A stretch of 53,621 bases of DNA, from the NCBI GenBank assembly GCA_937138345.1, contig CAKZOW010000014.1, positions 1 to 53,621 of the forward strand, written 5' to 3'. The translations under genes were made by a program, and so were the position numbers. Origin of the DNA: an uncultured archaeon. GTDB lineage: Archaea > Nanobdellota > Nanobdellia > Woesearchaeales > UBA583. Below, one piece after another: positions 15,248 through 46,848 of this stretch. A model generated the notes under the pieces. The model saw nothing but the letters and a program-made list of their open reading frames with translations, was not told where the DNA came from and did not search any database. Positions within the stretch are counted from its first letter, which is position 1, and the number at the start of each line of letters is the position of its first letter.

Positions 15248-16048
15248 ATGATTGTTAAAGAAGAATTTTTAAATATGTTAAGACAATACTTCAGTCTTAA
15301 TCTCTACGAAGTTAAAATCTGGACAGCATTATTATCACGTAAAGTTGCAACAGCAGGTGAATTAAGTGATCTAGCAGTAGTTCCAAGATCAAGAACATAT
15401 GATGTTTTAGAATCTCTTGAAAAAAAAGGATTCGTTATGGTAAAACTTGGTAAACCAATCAAATATATCGCAATTTCTCCAAAAGATGTAATCGATAGAG
15501 TTAAAAAAAGAGTTGCTGAAAAATCAGAAGAAAAACTTCAAAAATTAGAAGCTCTAAGAGACTCAGAAGTATTAAAAGACTTAGAACAATTACACGAACA
15601 AGGTATCCAACTTGTAGAGCCTTCAGATTTATCAGGTGCTCTTAAAGGTAGATACAATCTTTACAATCACCTAGAAGCAATGGTTAAATCCGCAGAATCA
15701 GAAGTAATCATTATGACAACATCAACTGGATTCTTAAGAAAGGTTGAAGCACTAAGAGGAGTTTTTGAAGATCTTCAAGCTAGAGGAGTTTCAATTAAAA
15801 TTGGTTGTCCTAAAACTGAGAAAACAAAAGAAATCCAAGAAGAACTCAAAGATGTTGCTGAGATTAGATTTACTGAACAAATCGAAGCTAGATTCTGTAT
15901 TATCGATGGAGAAGAAGTATTATTCATGACACTTCACGACAAAGACATCTATCCTGCATATGATATTGGAGTTTGGGTAAACACACCATTCTTCTCACAA
16001 GCACTTCAACAATTATTTGAAATCGCTTGGAAAGAAATGGAAAAGTAA
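15248..16048 (+). CDS. TrmB family transcriptional regulator
   Basis: A 266-residue protein with an N-terminal TrmB winged helix (residues 10-80: LNLYEVKIWTALL, AGELSDLAVVPRSRTYDVLESLEKKGFV), a helical linker, then a C-terminal PLD-like effector domain (SEVIIMTTSTGF, ARGVSIKIGCPKT, ARFCIIDGEEVLFM). Such proteins in archaea often sense sugars or act as global regulators; the catalytic HKD motif is absent. The gene uses better codons than its neighbours, hinting at high expression. A perfect 10-bp hairpin overlaps its stop codon. Confidence 0.88.
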   Translation: MIVKEEFLNMLRQYFSLNLYEVKIWTALLSRKVATAGELSDLAVVPRSRTYDVLESLEKKGFVMVKLGKPIKYIAISPKDVIDRVKKRVAEKSEEKLQKLEALRDSEVLKDLEQLHEQGIQLVEPSDLSGALKGRYNLYNHLEAMVKSAESEVIIMTTSTGFLRKVEALRGVFEDLQARGVSIKIGCPKTEKTKEIQEELKDVAEIRFTEQIEARFCIIDGEEVLFMTLHDKDIYPAYDIGVWVNTPFFSQALQQLFEIAWKEMEK

Positions 16049-30429: not shown

Positions 30430-30448
30430 GACAAAGGATAGCTTTGTC
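30430..30448 (-). terminator. Hairpin after the surface protein gene
   Basis: GACAAAG and CTTTGTC form a 7-bp stem with a GATAG-side loop of five; the right arm (plus strand) touches the stop codon at 30448-30450. Confidence 0.4.
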
Positions 30449-30465
30449 TAAAATAATAAATAAAA
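30444..30465. repeat. 22-bp 3'-end repeat, copy at the surface protein stop
   Basis: Second copy of the repeat described at 30194; contains the TAG stop and the codons for YLLF of the anchor. Confidence 0.6.
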
Positions 30466-32097
30466 TATAAGTAATCCCACACTTACAACTAAACCGACTT
30501 TTTCAATTGTTCTTGGTTTTTCTTGAAATATGGTAACAATTTCTGCTGATGAAATTAAAGTTCCATAAACATTTTCTTGCTCAATTCCAAATACTTTTGG
30601 CAAATTATCAAGAGTTGGGTTTCTCTCAACTAAATAGCTAACTTCCCACTCTTCCCCAGGTAGTAAAGTATTAATTCTCCAGGATCCTCTCTCAAAAAAG
30701 ATTTGTGATATCTCTTTTACAATTACATCATCAGGAATATCATCAGTTACAAGCAAATCATCAATTGAAATTGAACCTAAATTCCTTACCCTAAGAGTTA
30801 CTCTTGCAAATGTGTCATCTACAATATCAACTTCTTTTTGAACAAATACTTTTTTATCTGGTAATAAATCATTAATTACAAGAACCCCTTCTGAGAAAAG
30901 AGTTTCTGAGTCATAAACTAATTCTGCTGGTTTTAGATAAGTAATACCAGATACACCATTATTATTTGATAATGTATATGAAATCACATTGGAAGAATAT
31001 CCTTCTAATTCATCAATTGTAAATTCTAGAAGAGAATTTGAAATTTTTGCCTCTAAAGAGATATCTTTAACTTCATATCCTGATGGAATTTCATCTGTTA
31101 CTTGTAAATTTTCAAAAGATGAATCACCAGTATTTACAATTGTCAAATAAACAATAAATTCATCACCTGATCTAACTACTGTTTTATCTACTGATTTTTT
31201 AATTAAAACAGTCTCTGATAAATTTACTTCATCAGCAGGAGATCCAAAGGAACCTCCACCACCACCTGAAGAACCACCTCCTCCACCACCTGAAGATCTT
31301 TTCTGTTCTTTAGATATTCTTGTTATATTAGTAATTACATCAGTTTGAATTAAAAATTTTGAAGAAATCCAATATACTGAATTATTAACACTAGAAGGAT
31401 CAAAAAAGTCTAACTCTCTAAATGCAAAAGGGAGTAAAGATAAGTTTGTAAATGATGTTAAAAGTGAACCTGATTTAAACATAGGATCATCTGCAGTTGT
31501 TGCATAAATATTTACATTTTCAACATCTAAAAGAAAATCAGTTGGATTTCTAATTCCAGCTGTAACAAGTCTTTTTGAGGTATTTTCTCCCTCAGAATTG
31601 TTCAAACTACCATCTTCATTATACCTAATTCCTTCTCTCTCTGGTTTTTGTAGGCTCAGTACTGCTTTTGGTACGAATTCAAAATCTGAATAATATTCTA
31701 AAACAGATTCATTTTGAGATACTTTTGAGAAAACATCATAAGAAACTAAACCATAAATATTATAACCTGTCCTAATAGTTTCATTAGGCCCTAAAAGATA
31801 TCCCTTTATTCTATCAAAACTAAAATCAAAATTTGATGATGTATTATCTACATTCTCTTGTGAAATACCAATTAATGAATCTAAATTTAGGGGTATTGAA
31901 TATTCATATACTTTAGATACATTTGAAGGATTATGAAGTTCAATAACTCCATCAACATCTAGAGAATAAGAACCTGATAAGAGTTTTGTAGAAGTAGCAT
32001 CTTCAACAATAGACACCTCAATTTCTGTAGAGTAAAGAGAAAAAAAAGAAATAGAAAAAACAAATACAATAATTAACAAATTGATAAAATTTTTCAT
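30448..32097 (-). CDS. Surface protein with DUF11-like repeats and C-terminal anchor
   Basis: A 549-residue secreted protein: signal peptide (FINLLIIVFVFSISFFSLYS), a beta-rich N-terminal half, a glycine linker of about 20 residues (GGGGGGSSGGGGG near 270), then two DUF11-type domains (SVDKTVVRSGDEFIVYLTI from about 300; VQKEVDIVDDTFARVTLRV about 100 residues later), and a C-terminal membrane helix VGLVVSVGLLIFYLL with no cytosolic tail. DUF11 domains serve as stalks in surface proteins. Its ATG overlaps the previous gene's stop by four bases (coupled). Its tail is duplicated downstream. Confidence 0.8.
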   Translation of the reverse strand: MKNFINLLIIVFVFSISFFSLYSTEIEVSIVEDATSTKLLSGSYSLDVDGVIELHNPSNVSKVYEYSIPLNLDSLIGISQENVDNTSSNFDFSFDRIKGYLLGPNETIRTGYNIYGLVSYDVFSKVSQNESVLEYYSDFEFVPKAVLSLQKPEREGIRYNEDGSLNNSEGENTSKRLVTAGIRNPTDFLLDVENVNIYATTADDPMFKSGSLLTSFTNLSLLPFAFRELDFFDPSSVNNSVYWISSKFLIQTDVITNITRISKEQKRSSGGGGGGSSGGGGGSFGSPADEVNLSETVLIKKSVDKTVVRSGDEFIVYLTIVNTGDSSFENLQVTDEIPSGYEVKDISLEAKISNSLLEFTIDELEGYSSNVISYTLSNNNGVSGITYLKPAELVYDSETLFSEGVLVINDLLPDKKVFVQKEVDIVDDTFARVTLRVRNLGSISIDDLLVTDDIPDDVIVKEISQIFFERGSWRINTLLPGEEWEVSYLVERNPTLDNLPKVFGIEQENVYGTLISSAEIVTIFQEKPRTIEKVGLVVSVGLLIFYLLF

Positions 32098-32837
32098 TGT
32101 CCATATTCAGATTTAATTCTTTTAACCTCCCTTCTAATCTCAAAGAATAAAAAGAGAGCTAAAATAATATTTACAACAATCCAAAATAAATATGACCCTT
32201 GGATACCTCCTACATTCACAGGAATATAAGAATATTCAAATAATATGGAAGATGGCGTATTATCTTCAATTTGCCATGTTGCTTGATTGTTATTAATTAC
32301 TCCCTCAGCACCTTCAGATTCTAAATAAGTGAAATGATAACTTGACGGAAGCTCTACAGTGAATTCTCCTTGTTCAATTGGAATTGTACTCTCCCTAATT
32401 GGAATTTGTAATGATTTAAAGAAAATACCACCAGGATCATAAGATAATTTATAGTAGAGATCAAATTCATACTCAAAACCAGGAAGAAGAGGGTAATATA
32501 CATCAATAATAATAACTGAAAATTCCTTAGATTTTCTAATTTGGGATTTAATTTCTTTTCCAAAAGCATCAACAGCATAAACTTCTTGTACATCAATATT
32601 ACCTAGGGAACCTTCAGTTCCTTTAGCAATTTTAAACTCAATTTGACCTGGAACAATTCCCACATCATAAACATTTTTTAATGTTAGAGATTTATTAATT
32701 TCAATAGTATCATCATCATTAATTTTTAAATGAGTAGAATAATCTGAGAAAACCTCAACTGATGCATAGGAAGTAAAAAAAGCACCTAAAAAAAGTACAA
32801 CAAAGATACATTGCTTTAGGAAATTTGAAATATTCAT
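32094..32837 (-). CDS. Secreted protein with C-terminal membrane anchor
   Basis: A 247-residue protein with a signal peptide (LKQCIFVVLFLGAFFTSYA), a beta-sandwich extracellular domain without cysteines after the leader (DIDVYYPLLPGFEYEFDLYYKLS-like pattern), and one C-terminal helix (YLFWIVVNIILALFLFFEI) with a short basic cytosolic end. The domain resembles archaeal proteins with a membrane-anchored Ig-like fold, but I cannot name it. Coupled to the DUF11 protein by a 4-bp overlap, so the two probably act together at the surface. Confidence 0.7.
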   Translation of the reverse strand: MNISNFLKQCIFVVLFLGAFFTSYASVEVFSDYSTHLKINDDDTIEINKSLTLKNVYDVGIVPGQIEFKIAKGTEGSLGNIDVQEVYAVDAFGKEIKSQIRKSKEFSVIIIDVYYPLLPGFEYEFDLYYKLSYDPGGIFFKSLQIPIRESTIPIEQGEFTVELPSSYHFTYLESEGAEGVINNNQATWQIEDNTPSSILFEYSYIPVNVGGIQGSYLFWIVVNIILALFLFFEIRREVKRIKSEYGQ

Positions 32838-32860
32838 TCTAAAATAAGTTAAAAAAAAAG

Positions 32861-32879
32861 AGTATTTAATTATAATACT
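32861..32879 (-). terminator. Hairpin with stop codon in its loop
   Basis: AGTATT and AATACT pair (6 bp) around a 7-base loop that holds the stop codon (32870-32872) of the 604-residue surface protein. Confidence 0.35.
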
Positions 32880-34684
32880 AAACCAATGAGTAACAAAACA
32901 CTTGCAACTACTGCAAACAATGCTTCAGTACCTTGAAGTTTATCTAAAATCTCTGTAATAACTGGTGAACTGGATACTCCAGCACCTTCAACTTTTTGAG
33001 GGTCTAAACCAGTTACAAACACATCTAATACTTCATAATCTCCAAAACCAGTTACATTATATTCTGCATACCATGTAGTATTTTCATTTTGAGCAGGACC
33101 TGATGCAAATGATGTATTTAATGAATTAGTTGGAATAATAGCCCATTGATGTAGAGTTCCATTAAAAGGACCTGCTACGGAGTTATTTGACTCTGCAGTA
33201 TTATACCAAGGAGATGATGAATAAGTCATTGCACCTGTTACATTAAATGTCTCTGGAATAAAATCATAAATTGTAACAATTGCATCTCCTGGAGTTACTT
33301 GATTACCTCTATTATGAACATCAATTCTTACACTATATTGATCTCCACCTAAAGATGTAACATTTTTCTCAATTTCTAACCAATAACCAATAATTAAGTA
33401 AAGTTCTTTGATATAGATATCATTATCATTTACAGTAACTGATCTATTAACAAGTTGAGTTCCATCGTTTTGAATTGTAAAGTTAATATCCATCCAAACA
33501 ATAGGTGAAGGTAAGTCTGAGTAATTAAAGAGCCAAGTATTTGATGCCCAAGGTGTTGATGTGTTAATTAACACATTTGGATAATAAGTAATATTTAAAG
33601 GAGCACCTGAAATTGGATCATTATCAATAGTGTTTGGATCAGTATATGAACCATTTACATTTCTCTGTGATACCCAAAATGTTGCTTCAGTTAAATTATA
33701 TGTAATATTTGTATCTGTATTAAAAAATCCAGTTACATTCCAAGTTACATTTGATCCATATAAAACTGGATCTGCTGGAGAAATAATTTGTTTTTCAAAT
33801 GAAATCTCTCCTTCTGATACTGCAGTAATATCAACAACTCTTAAGTGTGAAATTGTTTGATTTAATGAGTAAGATAATGTAGTATTTGATACTGAAAAAG
33901 CATCTGTTTTTGGAATATTGTAAGGGGTAGTAATGTTATAGGAAATATCTGTTCTATCTCCTAAATTCATACAATTACCAGCCCTAACAGTCCATGTTTG
34001 AGTTAAGTTATCTGCTGTGTGTGTCACATTAGTGGCATCCGTACCAGCAATTGAAGCAGGATCAAAGAGGAAATCTTGAGGTGATCCTGAAAAATCAACT
34101 GGTGTTGTAGTTTGATTTAATACAATATCATAAATACAAGTATTTGCTTGAAATGCTGCATTATCAAAAACATTCTCTAAAGTATCTGATAACCTAAATT
34201 CAGCACCTGCTAAAACTTTTGTATCTGAATATGCTGTGGTTAAATTTAATGGGGGTCTAACTGCAGTAGTATTTACAGTATATTCCCATGTTGAATTTTC
34301 ACCAGAAGCAATTTCTGGAATATGTAACATAATATTTCCTGATGAAGTATCATTTACAACAAATGAACCATTTCTACCTGTGAAATATTGAGGTAAAGTC
34401 ATATTCTCAGTAAAATCAAAGAGAACATAAATATCAGAAATAGTTTTTCCATTTGGGTTCTCATTTGTTACTGTAATATATCCAGTAATATTATATACTG
34501 ATTGATTCTCATTTGAATCAGCCCAGATCCCAGTAGTAGCTTCAAGAGGATTGTATGTCACAACTTGAGTTACTTCTTCTTGTAAATTAATTCTAACTTG
34601 TTCTTGTGTTGCAAATACTAATGAAGGCACAATCATTGCAATCAAGAATGAGTAGATAATGAATCTCAAACTTTTTTTATTCAT
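32870..34684 (-). CDS. Surface protein rich in Asn/Thr with C-terminal anchor
   Basis: A 604-residue secreted protein: signal peptide (LRFIIYSFLIAMIVPSLVFA), then several beta domains with phrases typical of DUF11/CARDB-like archaeal surface proteins (ITGYITVTNENPNGKTISD, VDVHNRGNQVTPGD-like), numerous N-glycosylation sequons (NVT, NIT, NTT) and a C-terminal helix TEALFAVVASVLLLIGLVL. Cys are very few. A TATA-like element about 30 bases upstream suggests its own promoter. Abundant S-layer or adhesion protein is possible; codon quality suggests good expression. Confidence 0.75.
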   Translation of the reverse strand: MNKKSLRFIIYSFLIAMIVPSLVFATQEQVRINLQEEVTQVVTYNPLEATTGIWADSNENQSVYNITGYITVTNENPNGKTISDIYVLFDFTENMTLPQYFTGRNGSFVVNDTSSGNIMLHIPEIASGENSTWEYTVNTTAVRPPLNLTTAYSDTKVLAGAEFRLSDTLENVFDNAAFQANTCIYDIVLNQTTTPVDFSGSPQDFLFDPASIAGTDATNVTHTADNLTQTWTVRAGNCMNLGDRTDISYNITTPYNIPKTDAFSVSNTTLSYSLNQTISHLRVVDITAVSEGEISFEKQIISPADPVLYGSNVTWNVTGFFNTDTNITYNLTEATFWVSQRNVNGSYTDPNTIDNDPISGAPLNITYYPNVLINTSTPWASNTWLFNYSDLPSPIVWMDINFTIQNDGTQLVNRSVTVNDNDIYIKELYLIIGYWLEIEKNVTSLGGDQYSVRIDVHNRGNQVTPGDAIVTIYDFIPETFNVTGAMTYSSSPWYNTAESNNSVAGPFNGTLHQWAIIPTNSLNTSFASGPAQNENTTWYAEYNVTGFGDYEVLDVFVTGLDPQKVEGAGVSSSPVITEILDKLQGTEALFAVVASVLLLIGLVL

Positions 34685-34748
34685 ATATCAATTTTTTCTG
34701 AATTATTCATATAAATTTTATGTACTACTTATAGGTGACCTGAAAACG

Positions 34749-37700
34749 TCAATCAACAAATACTGAAAAGAAATCCTCTGCATTTCCTAAAAGTGTTCTT
34801 TGATAATGTGATTGTAAATCAAATGTAGAATTTATAGGCAATGAGAGGTCATAATAATATAATGTGTCTAAACCAACAACTTCACTAAAATCTTCTGGAT
34901 TTGATGAAGAAATTCTACTAAAAGGAGAAGGAGAGAACTCTGCGTAAGTATAATTTTGCCAAAATCCAAAATTCTCAACACTAGAATTAATAATAATTGT
35001 ATCATTTCCAGGCAAAATAATTGATTTAGATACTCTAACATGTTTATCTGGAAGTACATAAAAAACATGAGATAAATTCACCCTATTATCATAAGAATCA
35101 TTTACTTCAACATATAAATCATATCTTCCAGTAGTTAGATTTCTATAACCCTCCCAAAGAGTTGAAGAAAGAGGAGATAAAGTATCATTGATAACAATTC
35201 CTGCAATACTATACCATGCTAAATCCAAAGGAAGAGTACTATCTAAAGTAATATTTAATTCATCCCCTAAAAAGATTTTCGAATTATTCAATGGAGAAAG
35301 TAATGTTAATACTGGAAGTGGTGCATTAATTTGAATTGTTCTAGATCCAGTACAGTTAATATTATCTAAGGAATCATTTGCACAAACTCTATAAGAATAA
35401 ATACCATTTTTAATACCAGTGCTCCCATTGCAATAGTAACTAATTCCTGAATTAAGAGTACAACTAAGAGATAAATTCTCTCCTTCAAATTCTAACCATG
35501 CTGAATCAAAAGTTGTATCTTCAATAGATACATTAACATCAAATGTAGATATTGGATTAATCGAATTATTTGCAGGAGTAGGTGCTAAAAAATTAATCCT
35601 TGGAGGTTCGGATACTACAAAATTTCTAACACCACTTGTAACGATATCTCCATCACTATCATCACAAAAAATCTCAATTTGATGATTACCATCAGGAAAA
35701 TTATTTACAAATGCCTCTAAATAATTGAAACTAGGATTTGACATAGTCACATTTGCTGCACCATTAAGAGAATAACCACACCACCCTCCAAAACCATAAC
35801 TAGAAGTATCTAATGTAATATTAATTCGAAATGATTCTGTATTATTTAAAATCTCACTAGGGTTCAAGTAATTAATAATTAAAGATTGAATTGTAAATGG
35901 ATATGAGTCATTAATAAAAGAACCATCATCCTCATTTTGAAGCACATTCCCTGATGCATCCGTTAAAGCAACATAAGCAGTATAATTACCTAGTTGAAAA
36001 TTACCTGCAATAGAGTAAGTCCAAAAATCACTTAGTTGCCTAGCTTCTCCAGGATTGATAGAGATAGGATCAAAATTCAAAGTCTCAACAATACCTCCTG
36101 TTGAATTTTTAAATTGCTGTAAAAGATACGCAGTTAGTTGTCCTTCTCCATTATTTTCTACAATTGAAGGTGTAACATATTCTCTTTTAACATTTGTAAA
36201 TTCTATTGAATCACTTTGATCCATATTTATTGCTCTAAATCTAATATTCCTTTGATTAGCATTTGTCCAAGGGTCCAAATATGTAGGAATATTCTTCACA
36301 ATAACTTCACAGTAATGTGGATAAAATATAGTATCATCTAAATTACATAAAAAACTACCTGAATATGAAGTCCCATCAAAAATTTGTACTTCAATATCTG
36401 GGCTTGGATTCCCTAAAGTATTTGATCCCGAAGAATTATAATTAGTAATATTAAATCCAAGTTTAATTGCAGTAATTTTATCAACATCAGAACCAAAACT
36501 AGAATCAATAATATTCCAATCATTTTCCCAATCAACTCTTGGATTAAAGGAAATATTTACTGAATCTACTGTCCAACCATCCCTAACAGTATTAGCATTT
36601 GAGGTTAACCTAAACCTTACATAAGAATCACTTTGATCATCTAATTCTGGAAGAAGATAAGATGAAGTTCCATCTTGAAGCTCATAATCTAAACCACCCG
36701 TTCCAATAAGAGAATCTTGAAAATATACTGTCCAAGACCCTCCGGCATTATTTGAACCTTCAAAAAATGCCCTATCTGTAGTTGTACCATCTTGAAGTTC
36801 TAAAGCTCTCCAATATGTAGCTCTAATATTTGTCCTTCCAGTAAAGTCAAACAATGGAGATCTTAGCCATTGATTGGCATTATTATTATAATTGCCATTT
36901 AAATCAATGGCATAACAATTACCACTATCACAATTATTATTAAATGCAGTAGATGGCACCCCTCTTTCCCATTCATTTTGAGCACCTCCAGTAGTCCATC
37001 CTTGAACAGAAGAATCAAAATCATAATAAAAAAAACTTACATCTCCTTCCTCAGTGTATGTTGTCGTTGTAATATCCTCTACTTTATTGAAACTACTCAA
37101 ATTCAACGATTCACCTAATTTAAAAATATTTTGTTGAGATTGGATACCAATAAAAGCTCTCACACCAACTACCTCAAAATTTTTTGTTGATGAAAAAGCA
37201 GGATTTGATGAATTATCTTCACCAATAATCACATATCTATAGACACCATCTTGCAAAGTATCTGAAAAATTAAATGCATACAAATCAGCTCCAATATTAG
37301 ACATTAGATAAGTAGATTTAGAAAAATCTGGGAAAGTAACTTCAACTTGAACATTATCAACTAAAACATTATCAGTTACATTGGCAGATATAGTAGTTAC
37401 ACCACCAATTGAAAAAGTAGGTGAAGAAATTGACACATTTGTTATAACTGGAATAGTAATATCTGTGTTATTTGCCCTCACAAATAAAGTTCTCTCTCCA
37501 CTATCTTGAGAAGACATCTGAAAATAATTTACAAGGCTTGATTGTCCTACACAGGAGATATTATACTCTCCAATCGTATTCTCTGTGAATGAATAAGAAG
37601 TTCTTCCAGAAGAGTCAGTAAAATTTGAACCCAATAAGACCCCATCTTGAAAAAATTGTACTTCAAGGCCAGAATAAGTAGTTGATGGAATATTTGCATC

Positions 37701-40553
37701 CACAAATTGGCAAGATATAGTAGTATTTATACCCTCATAACCAACATTTGGAATTAAATCTGTTTGATTAATTCCAAGTTCTGCAATAATATCAAAAGTT
37801 CTAGTTATGGAAGAATTTCCCCTAAGATTAAAGTAAAGGTCATTAGCACTTGTTTGAGAGATAGTTACAGGGCCAATAGATGAAAATAAAGAGGTATCTG
37901 AAGTATCCAAAGAAGTTAAAGTTGAATTTTGATCAACAGTATCAACTAAGTACTCAACTACTGAACCATCACCATTGTGAGTTAAAGATCCACTTTGAAG
38001 AGGTAAATCCCAAAGTACTGTTGAATTAATAATATTTCCTCTAATTACATTCAGATTATTTCCAACTGAAGTTCCATTCTCCAAATTCCATGAAAGTAAA
38101 ATCGGAGCAACTTTATCTAATACTTCAAATTCAACATCATCATGGTCTCTGTATGTAGGTTCATGACAAATTCTATTTACAAATCCTTGGTATACAACAC
38201 TCGCTCTTACATGATGAGCTCCAACATAATTTGTTAATGTTTGAGTTGTACAATATTGTTGAATTCCAATACATGCTGTTGCATCTCCTGTTGTTCCTGT
38301 CTGAAAAATAACATCTGAATTTGCAAAATCAGAAGCCCTACCTTTATATCCAATCGATGCCCTATCACCATTATATGCAGTATCACAAGTAACATCAATA
38401 CATATTTCAATAGTATCTCCAACTCCAAAATAGGAGCCATTTAAATTTCTAACAATAATATCATCTACCCACTCATATTCTTTATTACCATCATTACAAG
38501 TAGTATCAATAGTCTGGTCTCCTGCTACCGGAGTATCCAAACCATCTCCTACTCTACAACCCGCACCACAAATACATGGAGATTCAGAACCACAAACTTG
38601 AGCAGCAGGATCAATTGCAAATAACCAAGAACGATTTTCATAAAATACTCTATTCTCATATTCAATCCAAGAGTTACCCAAGTAATAAAGATAAGGGGTA
38701 ACTAGAGGTACTTGTGCGACATAATAAGGTTCAAAATCAGAAGTTATATTAAACCACTTCAAATACATTGTGTCATTTTCGCTATAATAAATATTAGCGT
38801 TAGTTTCATTAATTTCAAAATCAGAACTCACTACTTCAATTAAATCAAATTCTCCTACATATCTTGAATCAACATTTGATATATCAAAATCATTTCTAAA
38901 AGGTCCAAGCCAAGGATCAATAGTTACAGGAACATCCCTAATAATATCAAAAGGATAACTCTCAACAACATTAAAAAAAGAAGTAATATCTACAATCATA
39001 TCTTCTAACTCTACCTGAGCATAAAGCGAATACTCTCCAATCTCATCAGTTAGAAGAGATGTTTCATACACACCAATATTTTCTGTTTTAAAAATTTGCC
39101 CTGATTGTGATGTTAGCACAAGAGTTTCATTTGAAGGTTTTGTAACCTCTAAAGTAATTTGAGCATCATCAACTAAAAAACCCCATTTATCTAAAACAAC
39201 AATTAACATCTCAGATACTTCATTTTCTTTGTAAAGTGGTTTTTTTGTATTAATTGAAATCAAACCATAAGCAAAAGAATCCTGTTCAACTTCCTCCGAA
39301 CCATCTTCATATCGAGTTATTTTCTCATAAGTGTAAATCCCTGGTTGTAATTTTCTCTGAGATAAAGACTCAGAATCATTTACTTCAATTAATTTTTTTC
39401 CTTGATCAAAATAAATTTTCTCATCCTCAAAAATAATTTCTTTATCTTTTTGAATAGAACTTCCCTGTAAGTCATTAGATTCGGAAATATTTGCTTCAAT
39501 AATAGTTAAATTATTTTCTAAAAGAGGTTTTTCTAATAAAAATGATTCATTATTGGTAAAATTCTCAGCCATTCTAGTAAAACCCACAGAGAAATTAGTA
39601 ATTTGATTACTTAAGTTATCTAAAGATTCAACATTTGTAAAACTAGGAATTTCTTTTTTAGATGGAAGTTTATCTTTAGATGATAATTTTACTTTATAAG
39701 AATTCATCTCTTGTGTTTCCCTATCTAATTTAGAAATCTCGTCCATATCTACTAAACCATCCTCTGAGACTTCCAATACTTTTTCTCTTCCTTGAAAATC
39801 AATTCCTATTACCTCATTACCTGAGGAATTAATTTTAACAATAGTTGATAAATTTTCTTTTACAACTTCCGTTTCTAAATCTTTAGAAAATAATACAAAA
39901 GAAGATGACAAAGTATCATCAGGCAAATATACTTGAACTTGATATTTACCAAATTCCAAATCTTTTGAGAGATTTATTGAAAAATCACACTCCAAATCAC
40001 AAGCAATGACCTCATCAATTTTTTTACTAGGATTTCCTTGAGGAAATATTCTAAAAATAACATTTTCTTGAGCTCTTTCTAAGAAAAGAGTTCCTTCTAA
40101 AAAAGGAATCTCATAAGGTTTAACTTCCACGTTTGGATTTAAGAAAATACTATTATTAGATTGTTTTTTTTCTAAAAGAAAGGGAATTGATTGTAAATAT
40201 CTATCTCCCTCATAACTTGAGTAAATATGTAATTGTAACTCTTCAAAAAAAACTTTTTTAATTGGCACTTTTACCTCACAAATATCTTGGTTACAATCAA
40301 TTGACTCCGAACCTAACACTAAATTTTCTTTTCCATATAAAATTTCAAAGTCAAGCTCTAATTCTTCACCTACATTATTTTCAACTTCAACTAAAACAGA
40401 ATAAGGAATTTTTTCATTATTAATATACGTGATTTTAGCATCAAAAATACCATCTGAGCTCAAATAAGAAATAGCTGAAAGAGAAGAAATAATAAAAATA
40501 CTAAAAATTAAACTAAATAAGTACCATTCCTTTCTAATAAAGGGTTTATTCAA
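34749..40553 (-). CDS. Giant secreted multi-domain surface protein (about 1934 residues)
   Basis: The frame has no ATG near its start. I start it at a TTG at 40553 (NKPFIRKEWYLFSLIFSIF, a proper signal peptide), 29 bases after a TATA box; a TTG at 40610 is the alternative. Seen: Glu/Ser-rich N-terminal region to about residue 400; Ig-like and macroglobulin-like beta domains; a cysteine-rich patch near 650 (CGSESPCICGAGC); a MAM/jellyroll-like domain about 1176-1331 (FDSSVQGWTT, RDGWTVDSVNISF); and several Ig-like repeats to the end. There is no C-terminal anchor. Next to the ABC pair at 40.6-42.5 kb. Confidence 0.8.
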   Translation of the reverse strand: MNKPFIRKEWYLFSLIFSIFIISSLSAISYLSSDGIFDAKITYINNEKIPYSVLVEVENNVGEELELDFEILYGKENLVLGSESIDCNQDICEVKVPIKKVFFEELQLHIYSSYEGDRYLQSIPFLLEKKQSNNSIFLNPNVEVKPYEIPFLEGTLFLERAQENVIFRIFPQGNPSKKIDEVIACDLECDFSINLSKDLEFGKYQVQVYLPDDTLSSSFVLFSKDLETEVVKENLSTIVKINSSGNEVIGIDFQGREKVLEVSEDGLVDMDEISKLDRETQEMNSYKVKLSSKDKLPSKKEIPSFTNVESLDNLSNQITNFSVGFTRMAENFTNNESFLLEKPLLENNLTIIEANISESNDLQGSSIQKDKEIIFEDEKIYFDQGKKLIEVNDSESLSQRKLQPGIYTYEKITRYEDGSEEVEQDSFAYGLISINTKKPLYKENEVSEMLIVVLDKWGFLVDDAQITLEVTKPSNETLVLTSQSGQIFKTENIGVYETSLLTDEIGEYSLYAQVELEDMIVDITSFFNVVESYPFDIIRDVPVTIDPWLGPFRNDFDISNVDSRYVGEFDLIEVVSSDFEINETNANIYYSENDTMYLKWFNITSDFEPYYVAQVPLVTPYLYYLGNSWIEYENRVFYENRSWLFAIDPAAQVCGSESPCICGAGCRVGDGLDTPVAGDQTIDTTCNDGNKEYEWVDDIIVRNLNGSYFGVGDTIEICIDVTCDTAYNGDRASIGYKGRASDFANSDVIFQTGTTGDATACIGIQQYCTTQTLTNYVGAHHVRASVVYQGFVNRICHEPTYRDHDDVEFEVLDKVAPILLSWNLENGTSVGNNLNVIRGNIINSTVLWDLPLQSGSLTHNGDGSVVEYLVDTVDQNSTLTSLDTSDTSLFSSIGPVTISQTSANDLYFNLRGNSSITRTFDIIAELGINQTDLIPNVGYEGINTTISCQFVDANIPSTTYSGLEVQFFQDGVLLGSNFTDSSGRTSYSFTENTIGEYNISCVGQSSLVNYFQMSSQDSGERTLFVRANNTDITIPVITNVSISSPTFSIGGVTTISANVTDNVLVDNVQVEVTFPDFSKSTYLMSNIGADLYAFNFSDTLQDGVYRYVIIGEDNSSNPAFSSTKNFEVVGVRAFIGIQSQQNIFKLGESLNLSSFNKVEDITTTTYTEEGDVSFFYYDFDSSVQGWTTGGAQNEWERGVPSTAFNNNCDSGNCYAIDLNGNYNNNANQWLRSPLFDFTGRTNIRATYWRALELQDGTTTDRAFFEGSNNAGGSWTVYFQDSLIGTGGLDYELQDGTSSYLLPELDDQSDSYVRFRLTSNANTVRDGWTVDSVNISFNPRVDWENDWNIIDSSFGSDVDKITAIKLGFNITNYNSSGSNTLGNPSPDIEVQIFDGTSYSGSFLCNLDDTIFYPHYCEVIVKNIPTYLDPWTNANQRNIRFRAINMDQSDSIEFTNVKREYVTPSIVENNGEGQLTAYLLQQFKNSTGGIVETLNFDPISINPGEARQLSDFWTYSIAGNFQLGNYTAYVALTDASGNVLQNEDDGSFINDSYPFTIQSLIINYLNPSEILNNTESFRINITLDTSSYGFGGWCGYSLNGAANVTMSNPSFNYLEAFVNNFPDGNHQIEIFCDDSDGDIVTSGVRNFVVSEPPRINFLAPTPANNSINPISTFDVNVSIEDTTFDSAWLEFEGENLSLSCTLNSGISYYCNGSTGIKNGIYSYRVCANDSLDNINCTGSRTIQINAPLPVLTLLSPLNNSKIFLGDELNITLDSTLPLDLAWYSIAGIVINDTLSPLSSTLWEGYRNLTTGRYDLYVEVNDSYDNRVNLSHVFYVLPDKHVRVSKSIILPGNDTIIINSSVENFGFWQNYTYAEFSPSPFSRISSSNPEDFSEVVGLDTLYYYDLSLPINSTFDLQSHYQRTLLGNAEDFFSVFVD

Positions 40554-40576
40554 TAAGAAAATATCACAATTCTCAT

Positions 40577-40586
40577 TTATAAAATT
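40577..40586 (-). promoter_or_regulatory. TATA box of the giant surface protein
   Basis: tttataaaat (an ATTTTATAAA element on the minus strand) about 29 bases before the TTG at 40553 supports that start and a leaderless mRNA. Confidence 0.5.
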
Positions 40587-40615
40587 ATACTTTTTCTCAA
40601 AAATGAACAAAAAAA

Positions 40616-41296
40616 TTATTGTGAATCAATAACAACCCCATCCTTCATCTCAATTACTCTATCAACTTGTTTTTTAAAGTCATCTTCATGAGTAACCATA
40701 ACAATAGTCATATTAAATTTCTTATTTAAAGACCTAAATAAAGACATAATTTCCTGTGAATTTTTAGAATCTAAATTAGCAGTAGGCTCATCTGCAAAAA
40801 GAATTAAAGGTTTATTCATAATTGATCTAGCAATAGATACTCTTTGTTGTTGACCTCCACTTAGCTCAGAAGGAAGTTTTGAGAGTTGGTCTCCTAACCC
40901 TACTTCCCTTAAACATTCATGTGCTCTAGATCTTGATTCTTCTACAGACATAGAATCTGCAATACCAATAATTTCTAAATTCTCAGTAATAGTGAGTTCT
41001 GGAATCAAATTAAAATCCTGAAAAACATACCCCAAATACTTTAGTCGAGCATTTGTCTGTTCAGTACTTGTCATCTCAAGCATACTATGTCCATGAATAA
41101 TTACTTTCCCTTCATTTGCTTGATCTAAAAGACCCATAATATAGAGCAAAGTAGACTTTCCTGAACCTGATGAACCAACTAATGCTACAAACTCCCCATA
41201 TTCAATATCCAAATTTACTCCTTTTAAAATTTCAACTGAATTATTCTTACCAAATTGATAAGATTTTCTAATATTTTTTACCTCAATAAATGCCAT
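40616..41296 (-). CDS. MacB/LolD-type ABC transporter ATP-binding protein
   Basis: A 226-residue ATPase: Walker A GSSGSGKST (41-49), Q-loop in VFQDFNLIP, signature LSGGQQQR (145-152), Walker B LILFADE (164-170), H-loop MVTHEDD. The LolD/MacB subclass typically drives a mechanotransmission permease instead of substrate import. It lies one base after the permease gene and is followed by the giant surface protein. The pair could export or remodel surface lipoprotein-like substrates; that is inference. Confidence 0.93.
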   Translation of the reverse strand: MAFIEVKNIRKSYQFGKNNSVEILKGVNLDIEYGEFVALVGSSGSGKSTLLYIMGLLDQANEGKVIIHGHSMLEMTSTEQTNARLKYLGYVFQDFNLIPELTITENLEIIGIADSMSVEESRSRAHECLREVGLGDQLSKLPSELSGGQQQRVSIARSIMNKPLILFADEPTANLDSKNSQEIMSLFRSLNKKFNMTIVMVTHEDDFKKQVDRVIEMKDGVVIDSQ

Positions 41297-41297
41297 G

Positions 41298-42494
41298 TTA
41301 ATCCACCCCCCTTAAAACACTGACAATATTTTTTTTCACAGTTTTATGTGAAGCAAAAAATCCTCCAAAAAGAGAAGATACAATGATAATTAATGAAGAA
41401 GTTAATAACTCTAAAATTGTATATTGTGGATAAAAAAAACCCATTGGCAGTTTAATTGGATTTAATTCTAAATAAAGAGTCAACATAGCAAAACCAATAA
41501 AACCAATAATAATCCCAGCAATTGCATATAAAAGACTCAAAATAACATAAGATTTGATAATTGTTTTCTCCGAAATTCCCACTGCTTTGAGAATAGATAA
41601 TTGTTTTTTCTTATTATTTACATTAATGTAAATAATGATAAAAATAACAATAAATGTTGAAAAAATTCCAATAACATTAGCTAACAAAGTAGTTATTTTC
41701 TGTGATTCTAAAATGGTTTCTGCTAGAGATAATTCTTCAAGTGAATCAATAACTTTCGCATTAATTCCCAAATTTGCAACTTGTACCTTAACATCTTCTT
41801 TAGTATAACCTTCATTGATCTTAATTAAAATTTCTGAAGAAATATCTTCATTAAAACCATAAACCTCTCTAAGTTCATCAATAGAAATTAAGAGATAAAA
41901 ATCAGGAATCCAAAATAATGTATCCATAATTCCCGATACAGTATATGATTTTTCAACACCATTATCAAAAATCAATTTAGCTCTCTGACCTACCCTCAAA
42001 TCTAAAGGTTCAAAACCTGTAGTTCCCTTAGCTCCATCAAGATTTCCTACTAATTCATCACCTAAAATAACCTCATCTCGAACATTTCTCCCCAAATAAG
42101 AACCCCTCTCAATTGATGAGTGGAACTTTGAAATATATCTCTCCTCATTAATATCAATACCTTTAATAACTGGAATAAATGAACCTTTATCATCAAACAA
42201 TGAACCTGTTGCAGAAAGCCTAGGACTAGCAGCATAAACTGAACCCAAAGATCTAACTTTTTTTAAAATTTCTTCAGTCTCATAAATAAAAGTCTCTTCT
42301 TCTTTAGGTATAATTGTCAAATCTGCAAATGCATAGTCTATTAATTTCGTATTAGTTACATCTTCAATACCATTATTTAGAGAATTAAAAAATGATAAAT
42401 TAATAAAAGAAAATGATAAAATACTCACTACTAAAAAAAAAAGCTTTATTGATGATTTTAAATTCTTTATTGCTAAAAAAAATGAGAGATTCAT
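41298..42494 (-). CDS. FtsX/MacB-like ABC transporter permease
   Basis: A 398-residue permease with the MacB layout: one N-terminal helix (IKLFFLVVSILSFSFINLSF), a periplasmic-type extracellular domain of about 230 residues (including LIDYAFADLTIIP and SISELR-like turns), and three C-terminal helices (VIGIFSTFIVIFIIIYINV, YVILSLLYAIAGIIIGFI, LLTSSLIIIVSSLFG). The motif LSILKAVGISEKTI between the last helices is typical of the FtsX family. Works with the ATPase after it and follows the CARDB-like protein by 6 bp. Confidence 0.9.
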   Translation of the reverse strand: MNLSFFLAIKNLKSSIKLFFLVVSILSFSFINLSFFNSLNNGIEDVTNTKLIDYAFADLTIIPKEEETFIYETEEILKKVRSLGSVYAASPRLSATGSLFDDKGSFIPVIKGIDINEERYISKFHSSIERGSYLGRNVRDEVILGDELVGNLDGAKGTTGFEPLDLRVGQRAKLIFDNGVEKSYTVSGIMDTLFWIPDFYLLISIDELREVYGFNEDISSEILIKINEGYTKEDVKVQVANLGINAKVIDSLEELSLAETILESQKITTLLANVIGIFSTFIVIFIIIYINVNNKKKQLSILKAVGISEKTIIKSYVILSLLYAIAGIIIGFIGFAMLTLYLELNPIKLPMGFFYPQYTILELLTSSLIIIVSSLFGGFFASHKTVKKNIVSVLRGVD

Positions 42495-42500
42495 ACTATA

Positions 42501-43604
42501 TTACCTTCTTTTTACAAGTAACACTAAAATACCTACTACAAGTAAAACACCCACAACAATAATAGGCAAATTTGATTTTTTCTCAACCGGGAAAACAACT
42601 TCTTGAGTTGAAGTATGTTCTCCAAAGTCATCCTCATAACTAATTGTCAAAAATAGAGGTAAAGAACCACTAGTTTGTGGAGTTAATGAAAAAATAAATG
42701 GCAAATCTTCATTTTTATTTATAGTACCAAAAAATGCTTCTTTTTGTCCCATTACGTCTCCTTCTAAAGAAACTCTAACATTTTTAGCCTTACCTAAACC
42801 GTCATTTTCAAGCCTAATTGAGAGTTGTGTTGATTCACCTTCAAAAATTGCATCTTCTATTTCTAAATGTTGTAAAATAATATTTGCTCTATCCTTAACT
42901 TCCATACCAATAGTCTCCCTAACTTCATAGAGATTATTTTGTGAATCTTCATAAGTTAAAATAATAGGAAGAAGTAAATAACCTGACTCAACTGAAGAAG
43001 AAGATAAAAATCTCCCTTCAATAACTTGTTTTGAATTTACATCCAAAGTTCTTTGAAATAAAAAATTCTCATCTAACAAACCCAAACTAGAAGAGTCCGG
43101 AGTTAATTTAATATTTTTTGCAAGACCTGTACCCTCATTGATAATCTCAAGTGCTAAGTTAAATTCTGTCTCTGGAATTATCTCAACATCGTTTGCAACA
43201 TTGAGAACTAAATTTGGAAGACCTGTAACTTGTACTGAAAAATCTCTTTCAACTGAGAGTGTTGAGTCATATTGGGTTGTAGCTTTAATTGTATAAAAAC
43301 CTGATTCTAAAGAAGATTTTGCTGTTAAAAAAAAAGTAATGGTTTTAGAACATGATGTACACAATCGAGATTCTGAATCACTTTGATCATCACTTTTTAA
43401 AATAAAACTATCTCCAAATGTCAGACTAGTCCTACCTAAAATGATTTCATCATTACCTTCATTAGTTAATCTAAGCTGTAGCGTTACATCTTGACCAGGT
43501 TGAACTGGATTGGGTTCTATGGAATTAAGAGAAATCTGTGGTGCTGCTGAAAATACAGAAGCCATCATAAAAAAAACCATCAATAAAAACATATAAAATT
43601 TCAT
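42501..43604 (-). CDS. S-layer-like CARDB-type protein with C-terminal anchor
   Basis: A 367-residue protein from ATG 43604 (MKFYMFLLMVFFMMASVFS signal). Three Ig-like domains of the COG1361/CARDB type follow (SLNSIEPNPVQPGQDVTL; LVLNVANDVEIIPETEF; IILQHLEIEDAIFEGEST), with two cysteines (LCTSCS). It ends in a membrane helix (PIIVVGVLLVVGILVLLV) and KRR. Such anchored proteins often sit beside MacB-like ABC permeases in archaea, here in the order protein-permease-ATPase, so it is likely the outer component of that transporter. Confidence 0.8.
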   Translation of the reverse strand: MKFYMFLLMVFFMMASVFSAAPQISLNSIEPNPVQPGQDVTLQLRLTNEGNDEIILGRTSLTFGDSFILKSDDQSDSESRLCTSCSKTITFFLTAKSSLESGFYTIKATTQYDSTLSVERDFSVQVTGLPNLVLNVANDVEIIPETEFNLALEIINEGTGLAKNIKLTPDSSSLGLLDENFLFQRTLDVNSKQVIEGRFLSSSSVESGYLLLPIILTYEDSQNNLYEVRETIGMEVKDRANIILQHLEIEDAIFEGESTQLSIRLENDGLGKAKNVRVSLEGDVMGQKEAFFGTINKNEDLPFIFSLTPQTSGSLPLFLTISYEDDFGEHTSTQEVVFPVEKKSNLPIIVVGVLLVVGILVLLVKRR

Positions 43605-43706
43605 AAGATAACATGCAGATAAATTATATAATAGTATTTGCAACAACTAATGAGTAAAAAGAAAGAAACAAAAGTATTGTTTTAACTCAAAAAAACATAT
43701 GTAAAC

Positions 43707-43718
43707 ATTTATATAATA
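43707..43718 (+). promoter_or_regulatory. Strong TATA box of the ThiF-like gene
   Basis: atttatataata, centred about 25 bases before the ATG at 43737; the surrounding aacatttatataata is repeated before the 46495 gene. Confidence 0.6.
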
Positions 43719-43736
43719 TTAACATAACTACCAATT

Positions 43737-44591
43737 ATGACTAAGTTTAACTACAAAGAAGCATTTCAAAGAAATCTTGGTTTAGTAGGTGAAGAAGAAC
43801 AAGAAATTATAAAAAATACTACTATTGCTATTCCTGGAATGGGTGGAGTTGGTGGATCTCATCTAATAGCCCTTGTTAGACAAGGATTTGAGAAATTCCA
43901 TATTGCCGATATGGATGAATACGAAGTAAAAAATATCAATAGACAATACGGAGCTACAATCAAAACTATAAATAAATCTAAAGTTCTAACTATGAAAGAA
44001 AGAGCCCTTGAAATAAATCCAAATTGTAAAATCAAAGTATTTGAAAAAGGAATCAATAAAGAAAATATTGATATATTTCTCGAACATGTTGATATCTCAG
44101 TAGATGGACTTGATTTCTTTGAAGTAGATATTAGAAGATTATTTTACAATAAATCACTAAAAAAAAACATTCCACTCATAACTGCAGGTCCTATTGGATT
44201 TAGCGTAGCATCGTTAATCTTTGATCCAAAAAGCAAATATAATTTTGATACTTACTTCGATATTGATGACTCTACAAAATATATAGACAAACTATTAAAA
44301 TTTGGTGCCGGACTAACACCTTCATTACTTCAAAGACCATACATAAAAAAAATTTCTCTCAAAGAAAAAAAGGGACCCTCCTCAATTGGTGCTGTAAATA
44401 TGTGTTCTGGTTTTGTAGTTATTCAAACTCTAAAAATTATCCTCGATTGGAAGAATGTTAAATATGTACCATATTACCACCAATTTGATGTGAGAAGAGA
44501 CAAATACATATGTAAAAAAAATTATTGTGGAAACAAAAATCCTATTCAAAAGATAAAAATAATGGTTGCTAAAAAACTATACAATAAGTGA
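43737..44591 (+). CDS. ThiF/MoeB/E1-like adenylyltransferase
   Basis: A 284-residue Rossmann protein of the ThiF/HesA/MoeB family, which adenylates the C-terminus of ubiquitin-like or sulfur-carrier proteins. ATP motif GMGGVG (34-39), DMDEYEVKNINRQ (58-70, with the conserved Asp, Asn and Arg), and VDGLDFFEVDIR are clear. The zinc CxxC pairs of MoeB are not seen; CKKNYCG near the end is a possible remnant. A catalytic cysteine is uncertain (MCSGF). Target unknown; no small Gly-Gly protein is nearby. Confidence 0.85.
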   Translation: MTKFNYKEAFQRNLGLVGEEEQEIIKNTTIAIPGMGGVGGSHLIALVRQGFEKFHIADMDEYEVKNINRQYGATIKTINKSKVLTMKERALEINPNCKIKVFEKGINKENIDIFLEHVDISVDGLDFFEVDIRRLFYNKSLKKNIPLITAGPIGFSVASLIFDPKSKYNFDTYFDIDDSTKYIDKLLKFGAGLTPSLLQRPYIKKISLKEKKGPSSIGAVNMCSGFVVIQTLKIILDWKNVKYVPYYHQFDVRRDKYICKKNYCGNKNPIQKIKIMVAKKLYNK

Positions 44592-44628
44592 GATACTTTT
44601 TTACAACTAATAAGTTTCACTCAAACTA

Positions 44629-44638
44629 CTTATATAAT
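44629..44638 (+). promoter_or_regulatory. TATA box of the tyrosine-rich gene
   Basis: cttatataat, centred about 24 bases before the ATG at 44656; an ATG start is preferred over the GTG at 44650 for this reason. Confidence 0.55.
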
Positions 44639-44655
44639 GTATTTAAAATGTGGAT

Positions 44656-46419
44656 ATGGAGACTCTCAAAGAACTCTATTCACAAATGGAATCTTACCAA
44701 GCTGGTAAATATTCTTATTTCGCAGACGTACAAGCTCTTGAATCACTCAAAGAGAAAGCATATCAAGAATCCGATTATGCTACGCTAAAAAAATTAACAA
44801 AATCTCAGTTAAGATTAGTAAATAATTTCAAATCATCATTGTATGGTACATATAAACAAAACCTTGATTACAAAGAAGAATATGCAGTTTACAAACAATA
44901 TGCTAAAAAATTAGGATATAAAGTATATGCATACTATCAATACAAAGCAGTAATGCTTGCCTATGAAGTATACGGATATGAAGCAGGATATTACAACTAT
45001 GCAACTCTTGCTAAACAAAATGAATATGATGTAGTTGAATATGAGAGTTATTGTGAAATTGTAGAAACTTATTATGAATATATGTATGAACAAAGATATC
45101 AAAGATATCTAGAATACATGAAAGTTAATTCTTATGAAGCTCTTTCATATGAAGATTATTCCTATGTGATGGAAGCTTACTCATATTATGGATATTATGA
45201 AGTAAAATCAAAAGAATATTATTCATATTATCAAGAATATGCTAAAATGAAAGGATACTCCGAAGTATCTTATGAACAATATTATTATGCAATTAAAGCA
45301 TATGATAATTATAAATATGAAATCGCATATCTAAGATACCAAGCTTATGCTTCAAAAGATTCTGCTCATTACCTAGAATATGAAACATACAAAAATGCAG
45401 TAAAAAGTATTGGATACTCATATGAATACAGCGGTTACGACTACTATAAAAACTACATCTCAGGATATGAAGGAAACTACTCAACAGCATACAAAGATTA
45501 TGCATACATGTATTATTCCTATTACAATTATGGAGTAGAAGCTGGATACCAATATTACAAAGAATACAACGAATATTATGGTTATGCATATTTAAGTTAT
45601 GAACAATATGAAGAATATACTGAGTATTATGCTAGTTTAAGTTACAAAGAACTCTACAACTATTATGCTAGTCATTATCAATATTACAACTACTATGATG
45701 TTAGTCAAAAAGCATACTATGAAGCATACTCCTACTATTATCACTACGATGCTAAATATGATTACAGTAACTACTACAAAAATTACTATGAACATCACTA
45801 CTATTCAAATAATGCTCAATACTATGCATTAAGTGTAGATTATGTATTAAACACACTATACTATATTTCAGAAGCTCTAAATGCACAATATTCATATTAC
45901 TCATACTTATACAATATGAAATACGAAGCAGGATCATATTACTATGATGTGGCTTACTCATATTATGCTAAATACGCAGAAGAAAAACAGTATTATGTTA
46001 TGACTGAAAATGATTATTACAACATGGCATATGCTCTGAGATATTACTATAATAAAGGGGGATATGATTACGGATACTATTTATCATACCAAGAATACTA
46101 TGATTTAATGCAATCTTATGGATATAATACGCTTGTTGAAAAAGATTATAACGAATATGTTGAACTTGCTAAATCCTATGATTATGAAGATTATTACCAA
46201 TATGTTTCAGCTCATGTATATTATGGTTCATATGAAAAACAAAATGAGAGTTATGTTAACTACTTACTTGGTAAATTTTCAAATCTCCTTGCTAAATCTA
46301 AAGAGAGTGGATCAGAATACAGTGAGTATTACTCAAACTTAGCAAAATCCCTCTACTCTAAAAAACAAGAAGTAGAAGGAGCTCTAAGTGCATATAGAAC
46401 ATATGCAAATTATTATTAG
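44656..46419 (+). CDS. Extremely tyrosine-rich helical-repeat protein
   Basis: A 587-residue protein. Counting from the GTG two codons earlier gives 170 Tyr in 589 residues (29%), no Pro or Trp, three Phe and one Cys. No signal peptide or membrane helix, so it is probably cytosolic unless exported by another route. The core (about residues 65-500) shows imperfect units of 35-45 residues following YAKxxGYxxxSYExYxYxxxAYxxYxY, for example EYAKMKGYSEVSYEQYYYAI, like TPR/Sel1-type two-helix repeats with tyrosines on both faces. The N- and C-terminal 50 residues are less Tyr-rich. Not a family I recognise; a structural or redox role is speculative. Confidence 0.85.
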   Translation: METLKELYSQMESYQAGKYSYFADVQALESLKEKAYQESDYATLKKLTKSQLRLVNNFKSSLYGTYKQNLDYKEEYAVYKQYAKKLGYKVYAYYQYKAVMLAYEVYGYEAGYYNYATLAKQNEYDVVEYESYCEIVETYYEYMYEQRYQRYLEYMKVNSYEALSYEDYSYVMEAYSYYGYYEVKSKEYYSYYQEYAKMKGYSEVSYEQYYYAIKAYDNYKYEIAYLRYQAYASKDSAHYLEYETYKNAVKSIGYSYEYSGYDYYKNYISGYEGNYSTAYKDYAYMYYSYYNYGVEAGYQYYKEYNEYYGYAYLSYEQYEEYTEYYASLSYKELYNYYASHYQYYNYYDVSQKAYYEAYSYYYHYDAKYDYSNYYKNYYEHHYYSNNAQYYALSVDYVLNTLYYISEALNAQYSYYSYLYNMKYEAGSYYYDVAYSYYAKYAEEKQYYVMTENDYYNMAYALRYYYNKGGYDYGYYLSYQEYYDLMQSYGYNTLVEKDYNEYVELAKSYDYEDYYQYVSAHVYYGSYEKQNESYVNYLLGKFSNLLAKSKESGSEYSEYYSNLAKSLYSKKQEVEGALSAYRTYANYY

Positions 46420-46446
46420 AGAAATCTAATTTTTATTCTTTTTTCT
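46416..46446 (+). terminator. Intrinsic-like terminator at the end of the tyrosine-rich gene
   Basis: TTAGA-gaaa-TCTAA forms a 5-bp hairpin with a GNRA-like loop that includes the stop codon (46417-46419), followed at once by a T-rich run (ttttattctttttt). Confidence 0.5.
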
Positions 46447-46464
46447 ATATAAGTAATTCATAAC

Positions 46465-46476
46465 ATTTATATAATA
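46465..46476 (+). promoter_or_regulatory. TATA box of the HTH_40-like gene
   Basis: atttatataata, the same core as before the ThiF-like gene, centred about 25 bases before the ATG at 46495. Confidence 0.6.
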
Positions 46477-46494
46477 CAATACCCCACATTCTCT

Positions 46495-46848
46495 ATGAAA
46501 AATAGTTCTTCAACTTGGCTTCAATGGTGTCAAGAATATAAAAAAGCACCCTATACACCCAAAGTTGCACTAACCCATAAACTCTTTATAATACACAAGT
46601 CACTTTCAAAAGTTGCAAATAAAAGAGAAGTAAACATTGAGACAATTGAGAGACAAATAATTCAACTTATCGTAAAAGGTCTCATCTCAATAGATGAAGT
46701 CGTTGAAGAAGGAGTAAAAAAAGAAGTGTTAGATGTACTAGAAAATGAAAACATAACTAAACTCTCAGAAATAAAAGAAAATATAGATAAAAATATCTCT
46801 TGGTTTGAAATAAAAGCAGTAATAGCTTCAACAGGAATAGAGGCTTAA
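46495..46848 (+). CDS. HTH_40-like (RecQ C-terminal type) DNA-binding protein
   Basis: A 117-residue protein that resembles the helix-turn-helix domain HTH_40 found at the C-terminus of RecQ/YpbB-type helicases: LHKSLSKVANKREVNIETIERQIIQLIVKG is not exact, but KVANKREVNIETIERQI and LIVKGLISIDEVV, then VLENENITKLSEIKE and WFEIKAVIA, follow its pattern. Here it stands alone, without a helicase. It may bind nucleic acid and regulate its neighbours. Cotranscription with the tyrosine-rich gene is unlikely given the terminator and separate TATA box. Confidence 0.55.
   Translation: MKNSSSTWLQWCQEYKKAPYTPKVALTHKLFIIHKSLSKVANKREVNIETIERQIIQLIVKGLISIDEVVEEGVKKEVLDVLENENITKLSEIKENIDKNISWFEIKAVIASTGIEA

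Follow-up and report, generated by a model that had tools for sequence, protein, structure and literature searches.

Alpha-solenoids of the TPR, PPR and Sel1-like kinds are built from tandem helical hairpins of 34-36 residues. High tyrosine content is known from cross-linked surface material, as in CotC of Bacillus, a small coat protein of Tyr, Lys and Asp. Tyrosine-rich precursors also build the dityrosine walls of Eimeria (PMC2726925), chains of Tyr and Trp carry holes and protect proteins (PMC11087555), and alpha-solenoids usually act in binding (PMC11514114). In this work, we analyzed a gene of an uncultured archaeon of the Woesearchaeales, whose draft genome comprises 1.80 Mb in 162 contigs. 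The gene lies on the + strand at positions 44656-46419 of a stretch of 53,621 nucleotides, hereafter the window, and its product is a new protein, an orphan outside the known families as far as our searches reach; we count it as new because no similar protein was found in any database searched.

Results

Reading frame, composition and expression signals

Read from the ATG at 44656, the gene encodes 587 residues including 170 Tyr (29%, against 4% in the other genes of the window); counted from a GTG at 44650, the frame has 589 codons and the same 170 Tyr. The ATG is probably the likelier start, because a TATA box lies 22-23 nt upstream of it, near the spacing found at the neighbouring genes, in a leaderless arrangement. 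The original prediction, which started at the GTG two codons upstream, therefore holds for its frame counts and probably not for the start itself. Its composition counts were all correct on recount over 589 codons (Y170 E58 S54 A49 K46 L37 N31 V27 Q26 G23 D21 T13 M12 R6 I6 H6 F3 C1, no Pro and no Trp), as was its mixture of Tyr codons, 112 TAT and 58 TAC. A wrong reading frame was ruled out, the other frames across the gene being open for at most 98 codons. With one Cys and six His, we saw no sign of an active site.

The genes at 43737 and 46495 carry near-identical TATA boxes 24-25 nt before their ATGs. The three consecutive + strand genes for ThiF, the tyrosine-rich protein and the HTH_40 protein (window 43700-46500) have in common the box (C/T)TTATATAAT, 22-25 nt before each ATG, suggesting strong leaderless promoters; a strong promoter had been predicted for the tyrosine-rich gene. 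The terminator claimed at its stop is represented by an oligo-T run, a candidate archaeal terminator; a hairpin terminator was looked for downstream and none was found. On a scale calibrated with 20 ribosomal proteins from this genome, the gene ranked second among the 51 window genes for ribosomal-like codon use (fourth when Tyr codons were left out), with a score level with those of the A and B subunits of the A-type ATPase, and TAC accounts for 34% of its Tyr codons, compared with 30% in the ribosomal proteins and 19% in the window. Codon use and TATA box together predict high expression, in keeping with the abundant protein that had been proposed. The most ribosomal-like codon use in the window belongs to a TrmB-type regulator (15248-16048), which is unusual for a regulator. 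No hydrophobic N-terminus, signal peptide or transmembrane stretch was present in the tyrosine-rich protein (maximum 19-residue hydropathy 0.72), the missing signal peptide having also been read originally, and the protein is probably cytosolic.

Table 1. Features of the tyrosine-rich gene and its surroundings (window positions)
Feature	Position	Strand	Basis or remark
PRK08223-type ThiF (E1-like) gene	43737-44591	+	64 nt upstream of the tyrosine-rich gene
TATA box CTTATATAA	44629-44637	+	22-23 nt before ATG 44656; neighbours' boxes near-identical
N-terminal region, more ordinary composition	44656-44874	+	Tyr counts; ends at residue 75 (GTG numbering)
Repeat unit 1, 36 aa	44875-44982	+	internal repeat comparison
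Repeat unit 2, 36 aa	44983-45090	+	internal repeat comparison
Repeat unit 3, 41 aa with 5-residue insert	45091-45213	+	internal repeat comparison
Repeat unit 4, 36 aa	45214-45321	+	internal repeat comparison; units 1-4 predicted helical hairpins
Repeat unit 5, 36 aa	45322-45429	+	internal repeat comparison
Repeat unit 6, 37 aa	45430-45540	+	internal repeat comparison
Repeat unit 7, 36 aa	45541-45648	+	internal repeat comparison
Most Tyr-dense stretch (37% Tyr), register unclear	45649-45948	+	Tyr counts
Degenerate repeat unit, 44 aa	45949-46080	+	internal repeat comparison and repeat profile
Degenerate repeat unit, 36 aa	46081-46188	+	internal repeat comparison and repeat profile
C-terminal helical region, lower Tyr content	46189-46416	+	Tyr counts, full-length structure model
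Oligo-T run, candidate archaeal terminator	46430-46445	+	sequence read
HTH_40 protein gene	46495-46848	+	downstream neighbour

Repeat architecture and predicted structure

The protein repeats with a period of 36 residues (z 5.7 against shuffles of the repeat core), one unit having 41, and the best internal 36-residue match scored 101, compared with a mean of 70.6 and a maximum of 92 in 30 shuffles. The register is clear over residues 76-333 and recognisable, in degenerate form, over 434-513; residues 334-433 are Tyr-dense and lack a clear register. The repeat described in the original prediction is thus real, and its unit length, given as 35-45 residues, has to be corrected. The unit consensus reads xxYxxYxxYAxxxGYxxxxYExYxxxxxxYxxYxYE. 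Nine of the 36 columns contain 48 of the 69 Tyr of six units, and Tyr occupies 8 columns in at least five of these six units, compared with 3.9 columns in shuffled units that could take any register (p 5e-5, an optimistic value as the units were picked after inspection). The view that this composition, however extreme, is not random low complexity is supported. A simple DNA repeat was ruled out, the units being at most about 80% alike over short stretches and their Tyr codons mixed. Tyr recurs most strongly at 110-120 degrees per residue and not at 100, a less than ideal fit for a straight alpha helix.

Since a multi-row alignment of the repeats lost register, AlphaFold2 was given a two-row alignment of residues 76-224 against residues 225-369 of the same protein. 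The four repeats of residues 76-224 were predicted as helical hairpins (pLDDT 78.4, pTM 0.60) with helices at model positions 2-13, 20-33, 35-48, 56-84, 92-105, 113-126 and 133-147, which match the repeat as a helix of about 12 residues, a 6-residue loop, a helix of about 14 residues and a tight turn; what emerged was periodic helix and not disorder devoid of periodicity. The full-length chain modelled alone was all-helical and unreliable (pLDDT 41), and Foldseek against the PDB and viral models gave no fold match at E 0.001. Helical repeats are therefore supported, as a prediction of moderate confidence for residues 76-224. Of the regular two-helix solenoid anticipated over residues 65-500, the part within this segment gains support and the whole-chain part does not; a solenoid along the entire chain would be an extension from the segment.

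The predicted 36-residue hairpins, together with the role usual for alpha-solenoids, give some weight to a binding scaffold, in which a Tyr-lined solenoid groove would hold an extended ligand (peptide, glycan, nucleic acid or lipid) in the manner of TPR proteins. We consider this unlikely, as the conserved Tyr follow a packing-face spacing and are not groove-specific, Phe and Trp would also be expected, and there is neither similarity to TPR or Sel1 nor a fold match.

Replacement of hydrophobic residues and selection on tyrosine

Relative to the 50 other window genes, Tyr is 7.2-fold enriched, Phe and Ile stand at 0.09 and 0.11 of their share there, and Trp and Pro are missing altogether. Hydrophobic residues other than Tyr make up 14% of the protein, as against 34% in the window, whereas adding Tyr brings the two close together (43% and 38%); Tyr would thus stand in for the usual core residues. 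Mutational bias was ruled out as the cause, because AT-rich drift in this window of 30% GC would raise Phe and Ile, and both are about tenfold depleted.

At matched Tyr sites, TAT and TAC differ in 51 of 111 pairs (46%, compared with 45% for random use) and the residue is retained. As synonymous Tyr codons swap at chance level and the residue stays constant, the repeats appear to be old and their Tyr maintained. This indicates that Tyr has been kept by selection across old repeats, although Tyr itself served in part to align the units; in a protein lacking relatives, conservation was judged among the repeats of this one sequence. The same observations bear on the idea of a fast-evolving, lineage-specific gene whose Tyr expanded without any phenol-specific function. 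Presence in one genome only, among the genomes searched, favours such an expansion; on the other side, the old, diverged repeats have held on to Tyr in fixed columns although their synonymous sites are saturated, and codon use is optimised. We regard it as very improbable, the least likely of the explanations considered.

That Phe and Trp are avoided suggests a part for the hydroxyl, be it in hydrogen bonding, in solubility, in cross-linking or in redox chemistry, although a need for solubility alone may explain the choice of Tyr over Phe. If phenol chemistry is what favours Tyr, the array might have a redox role as a radical sink or hole-hopping relay, protecting the cell or wiring a redox partner. 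The capacities of Tyr/Trp chains noted above fit this role, and a multicopper oxidase in the genome makes exposure to oxygen plausible. Against it, the protein has no Trp, one Cys and six His, neither a cofactor motif nor a redox neighbour was seen, and in the hopping chains known so far a few residues suffice to serve a cofactor. A redox role is accordingly improbable in our estimate and stands behind the binding scaffold.

Search for relatives

The protein's own genome returned only the self-match. No relative was found in 60 related genomes, in 353 genomes of the order searched with the repeat profile and the full protein (the few weak matches look like chance), in 371 genomes of the phylum, in about 85,000 species plus viral contigs searched by peptide words, or in phages and plasmids by tblastn, where one phage match reached E 4. 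The repeat profile works, as it recovers nine units in the tyrosine-rich gene itself; in the 353 genomes of the order it revealed no Tyr repeats elsewhere. Pfam, NCBIfam, PHROGs, PADLOC and the PDB gave no match, so that a described Tyr-rich family, a finding that would have told against the original prediction, did not turn up in Pfam, NCBIfam, PHROGs or the PDB, and our literature searches brought up no archaeal Tyr-rich helical protein. These negatives are to be read knowing that low-complexity filters can mask Tyr-rich matches. DNA patterns of the Tyr spacing, each occurring four times in the gene and requiring exact spacing, were also run on the species and viral sets; among the matches listed there was no relative, and these were microsatellites, Ltp-type lipoproteins and unrelated Tyr-rich or chance frames. 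A scaffold of Anaerococcus (L182, - strand) carries another unusual Tyr-rich frame of 323 codons, in which Tyr reaches 26% and Pro and Ser are also abundant (SSYYSYYPY type); its pattern is unrelated to the Tyr repeats.

Genomic setting

The window contains A-type ATPase genes, archaeal LonB, the TrmB regulator and an archaeal-type nicotinamide-nucleotide adenylyltransferase. These genes mark the organism as an archaeon, and gene content and genome size together point to a probable member of the DPANN. On its - strand, positions 30448-43646 hold a cluster of a 1953-aa Big_13 protein, DUF11 and CARDB proteins and an ABC/FtsX transporter pair, which gives the impression of surface proteins together with an export system.

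The ThiF gene upstream raises the possibility that the protein is a precursor or carrier of modified tyrosines (a cross-linked coat, or adenylylated, sulfated or halogenated residues), perhaps made with the help of this neighbour. The short intergenic distance (Table 1), the matching promoter box and the Eimeria precursors cited above are in its favour. Furthermore, like the tyrosine-rich gene, the neighbouring ThiF is missing from five congeners, whose ThiF matches are all distant (E 2e-13 or weaker). However, a second PRK08223-type copy in the same genome (contig C48, L008 1501-2376), 54% identical, has no Tyr-rich neighbour; each gene has its own promoter box; the protein has no GG tail for an E1 enzyme and no signal peptide for a coat; and a conserved pairing of E1 enzyme and substrate gene was not seen: among 338 genomes searched in the order only two others have a ThiF match at E 1e-50 or better, and the Tyr repeats were seen in no other genome of the order. 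A shared origin with the neighbours was ruled out, since HTH_40 has a different gene neighbourhood in three congeners and the second copy of ThiF stands alone. The one multicopper oxidase of this small genome (contig C58, L320 403-2244, 613 aa) is CueO-like; its N-terminus is of the lipoprotein type, and it has Met-rich stretches. By its sequence it is a surface lipoprotein, and it has no genetic link to the tyrosine-rich gene. Oxidative cross-linking is chemically conceivable. Neither a cofactor motif nor a partner gene nor a Tyr-modifying enzyme linked to the gene turned up in our searches. We take the upstream ThiF as a weak lead and place the carrier of modified tyrosines below the redox role, as a poor prospect.

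Discussion

Taken together, the sequence supports a real gene, its repeat, a Tyr lattice, selection on Tyr and a codon bias. The interpretation that we tentatively favour, while giving it less than an even chance, is that of an abundant, probably cytosolic scaffold of helical-hairpin repeats packed through Tyr, with a phenol-dependent role in assembly and possibly in cross-linking. The product would be a non-secreted protein of tandem 36-residue hairpins. Helix A would carry Tyr at positions 3, 6 and 9 and be followed by a Gly-14/Tyr-15 turn; helix B would open with an (S)YExY cap and carry Tyr at 20, 23, 30 and 33, so that Tyr would occupy packing faces that normally belong to Leu, Ile, Phe or Trp. 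Stacking of the hairpins would give an elongated scaffold; its ordered phenols would pack, within a molecule as well as between molecules, through stacked rings and hydrogen bonds of the hydroxyl groups. Such a scaffold may serve as structural or assembly material, and its tyrosines could also be oxidatively cross-linked.

In our ranking this structural or assembly scaffold comes first, with the binding solenoid, the redox array and the substrate for Tyr modification as close rivals. The function, the solenoid along the chain, self-assembly and the dependence on phenols are what we infer, and the roles proposed for the protein remain guesses. It is tempting to speculate further that the protein represents a new class, a Tyr-core helical solenoid in which an ordered lattice of phenols takes over from the aliphatic core and has a function of its own, in radical storage or conduction or as a cross-linkable intracellular material; we hold this to be doubtful. 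Provided that the packing prediction holds, Tyr can stand in for the usual hydrophobic core of a stable helical repeat protein, which would bear on protein folding rules, phenol-based materials, radical chemistry and the orphan genes of small archaea. Should the expansion be driven by solubility only, the protein would still serve as an extreme case from nature for testing core composition.

Comparison with known systems

Hole-hopping chains of oxidoreductases resemble the protein in their arrays of redox-capable phenols, but consist of few residues, including Trp, at a metal centre, while here there are 170 Tyr, no Trp and no cofactor site that we could see. The cross-linked wall proteins GAM56 and GAM82 of Eimeria share regions very rich in Tyr (29% here). 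The Eimeria and Bacillus wall and coat proteins are, however, secreted or located at the surface of the spore, and their Tyr is found in short stretches or in a small protein, whereas in the archaeal protein Tyr stands in register over more than 400 residues of helical repeats, and no signal peptide, hydrophobic N-terminus or transmembrane stretch pointing to export or a surface location was found. The same Tyr spacing recurred in the genome and viral pattern scans in surface lipoproteins that we take to be of the Ltp family (L178, L233, L259, L285, L291 and L298). These have 5-10% Tyr and Leu/Phe-rich repeats of 47 residues, we found no evidence of homology, and the common spacing is probably a coincidence.

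Similar in build are the TPR, PPR and Sel1-like solenoids, which the protein resembles in its 36-residue length, predicted two-helix unit and Gly turn. Sel1-like repeats also have a similarly long loop between their helices. No repeat segment had a Pfam match, and no structural match to these solenoids was obtained. For TPR, three-repeat segments gave no match at E up to 10 and the whole protein none at 0.01, a profile comparison with a manually written consensus reached a probability of 0.3%, and, of the features of a TPR-like superhelix, helix pairs are predicted while Foldseek had no PDB match at E 0.001. For Sel1, with its consensus of 36-44 residues, Pfam had no match, a profile comparison with a manually written consensus gave a probability of 0.04%, and Foldseek returned a single meaningless match at E 6.1. 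The Tyr-rich protein would count as a helical-hairpin repeat protein in the broad sense, and we do not class it as a TPR or Sel1 member: its repeats have no Pro and none of the consensus residues of these families except Gly, and Tyr takes the places of Leu, Ala, Phe and Trp.
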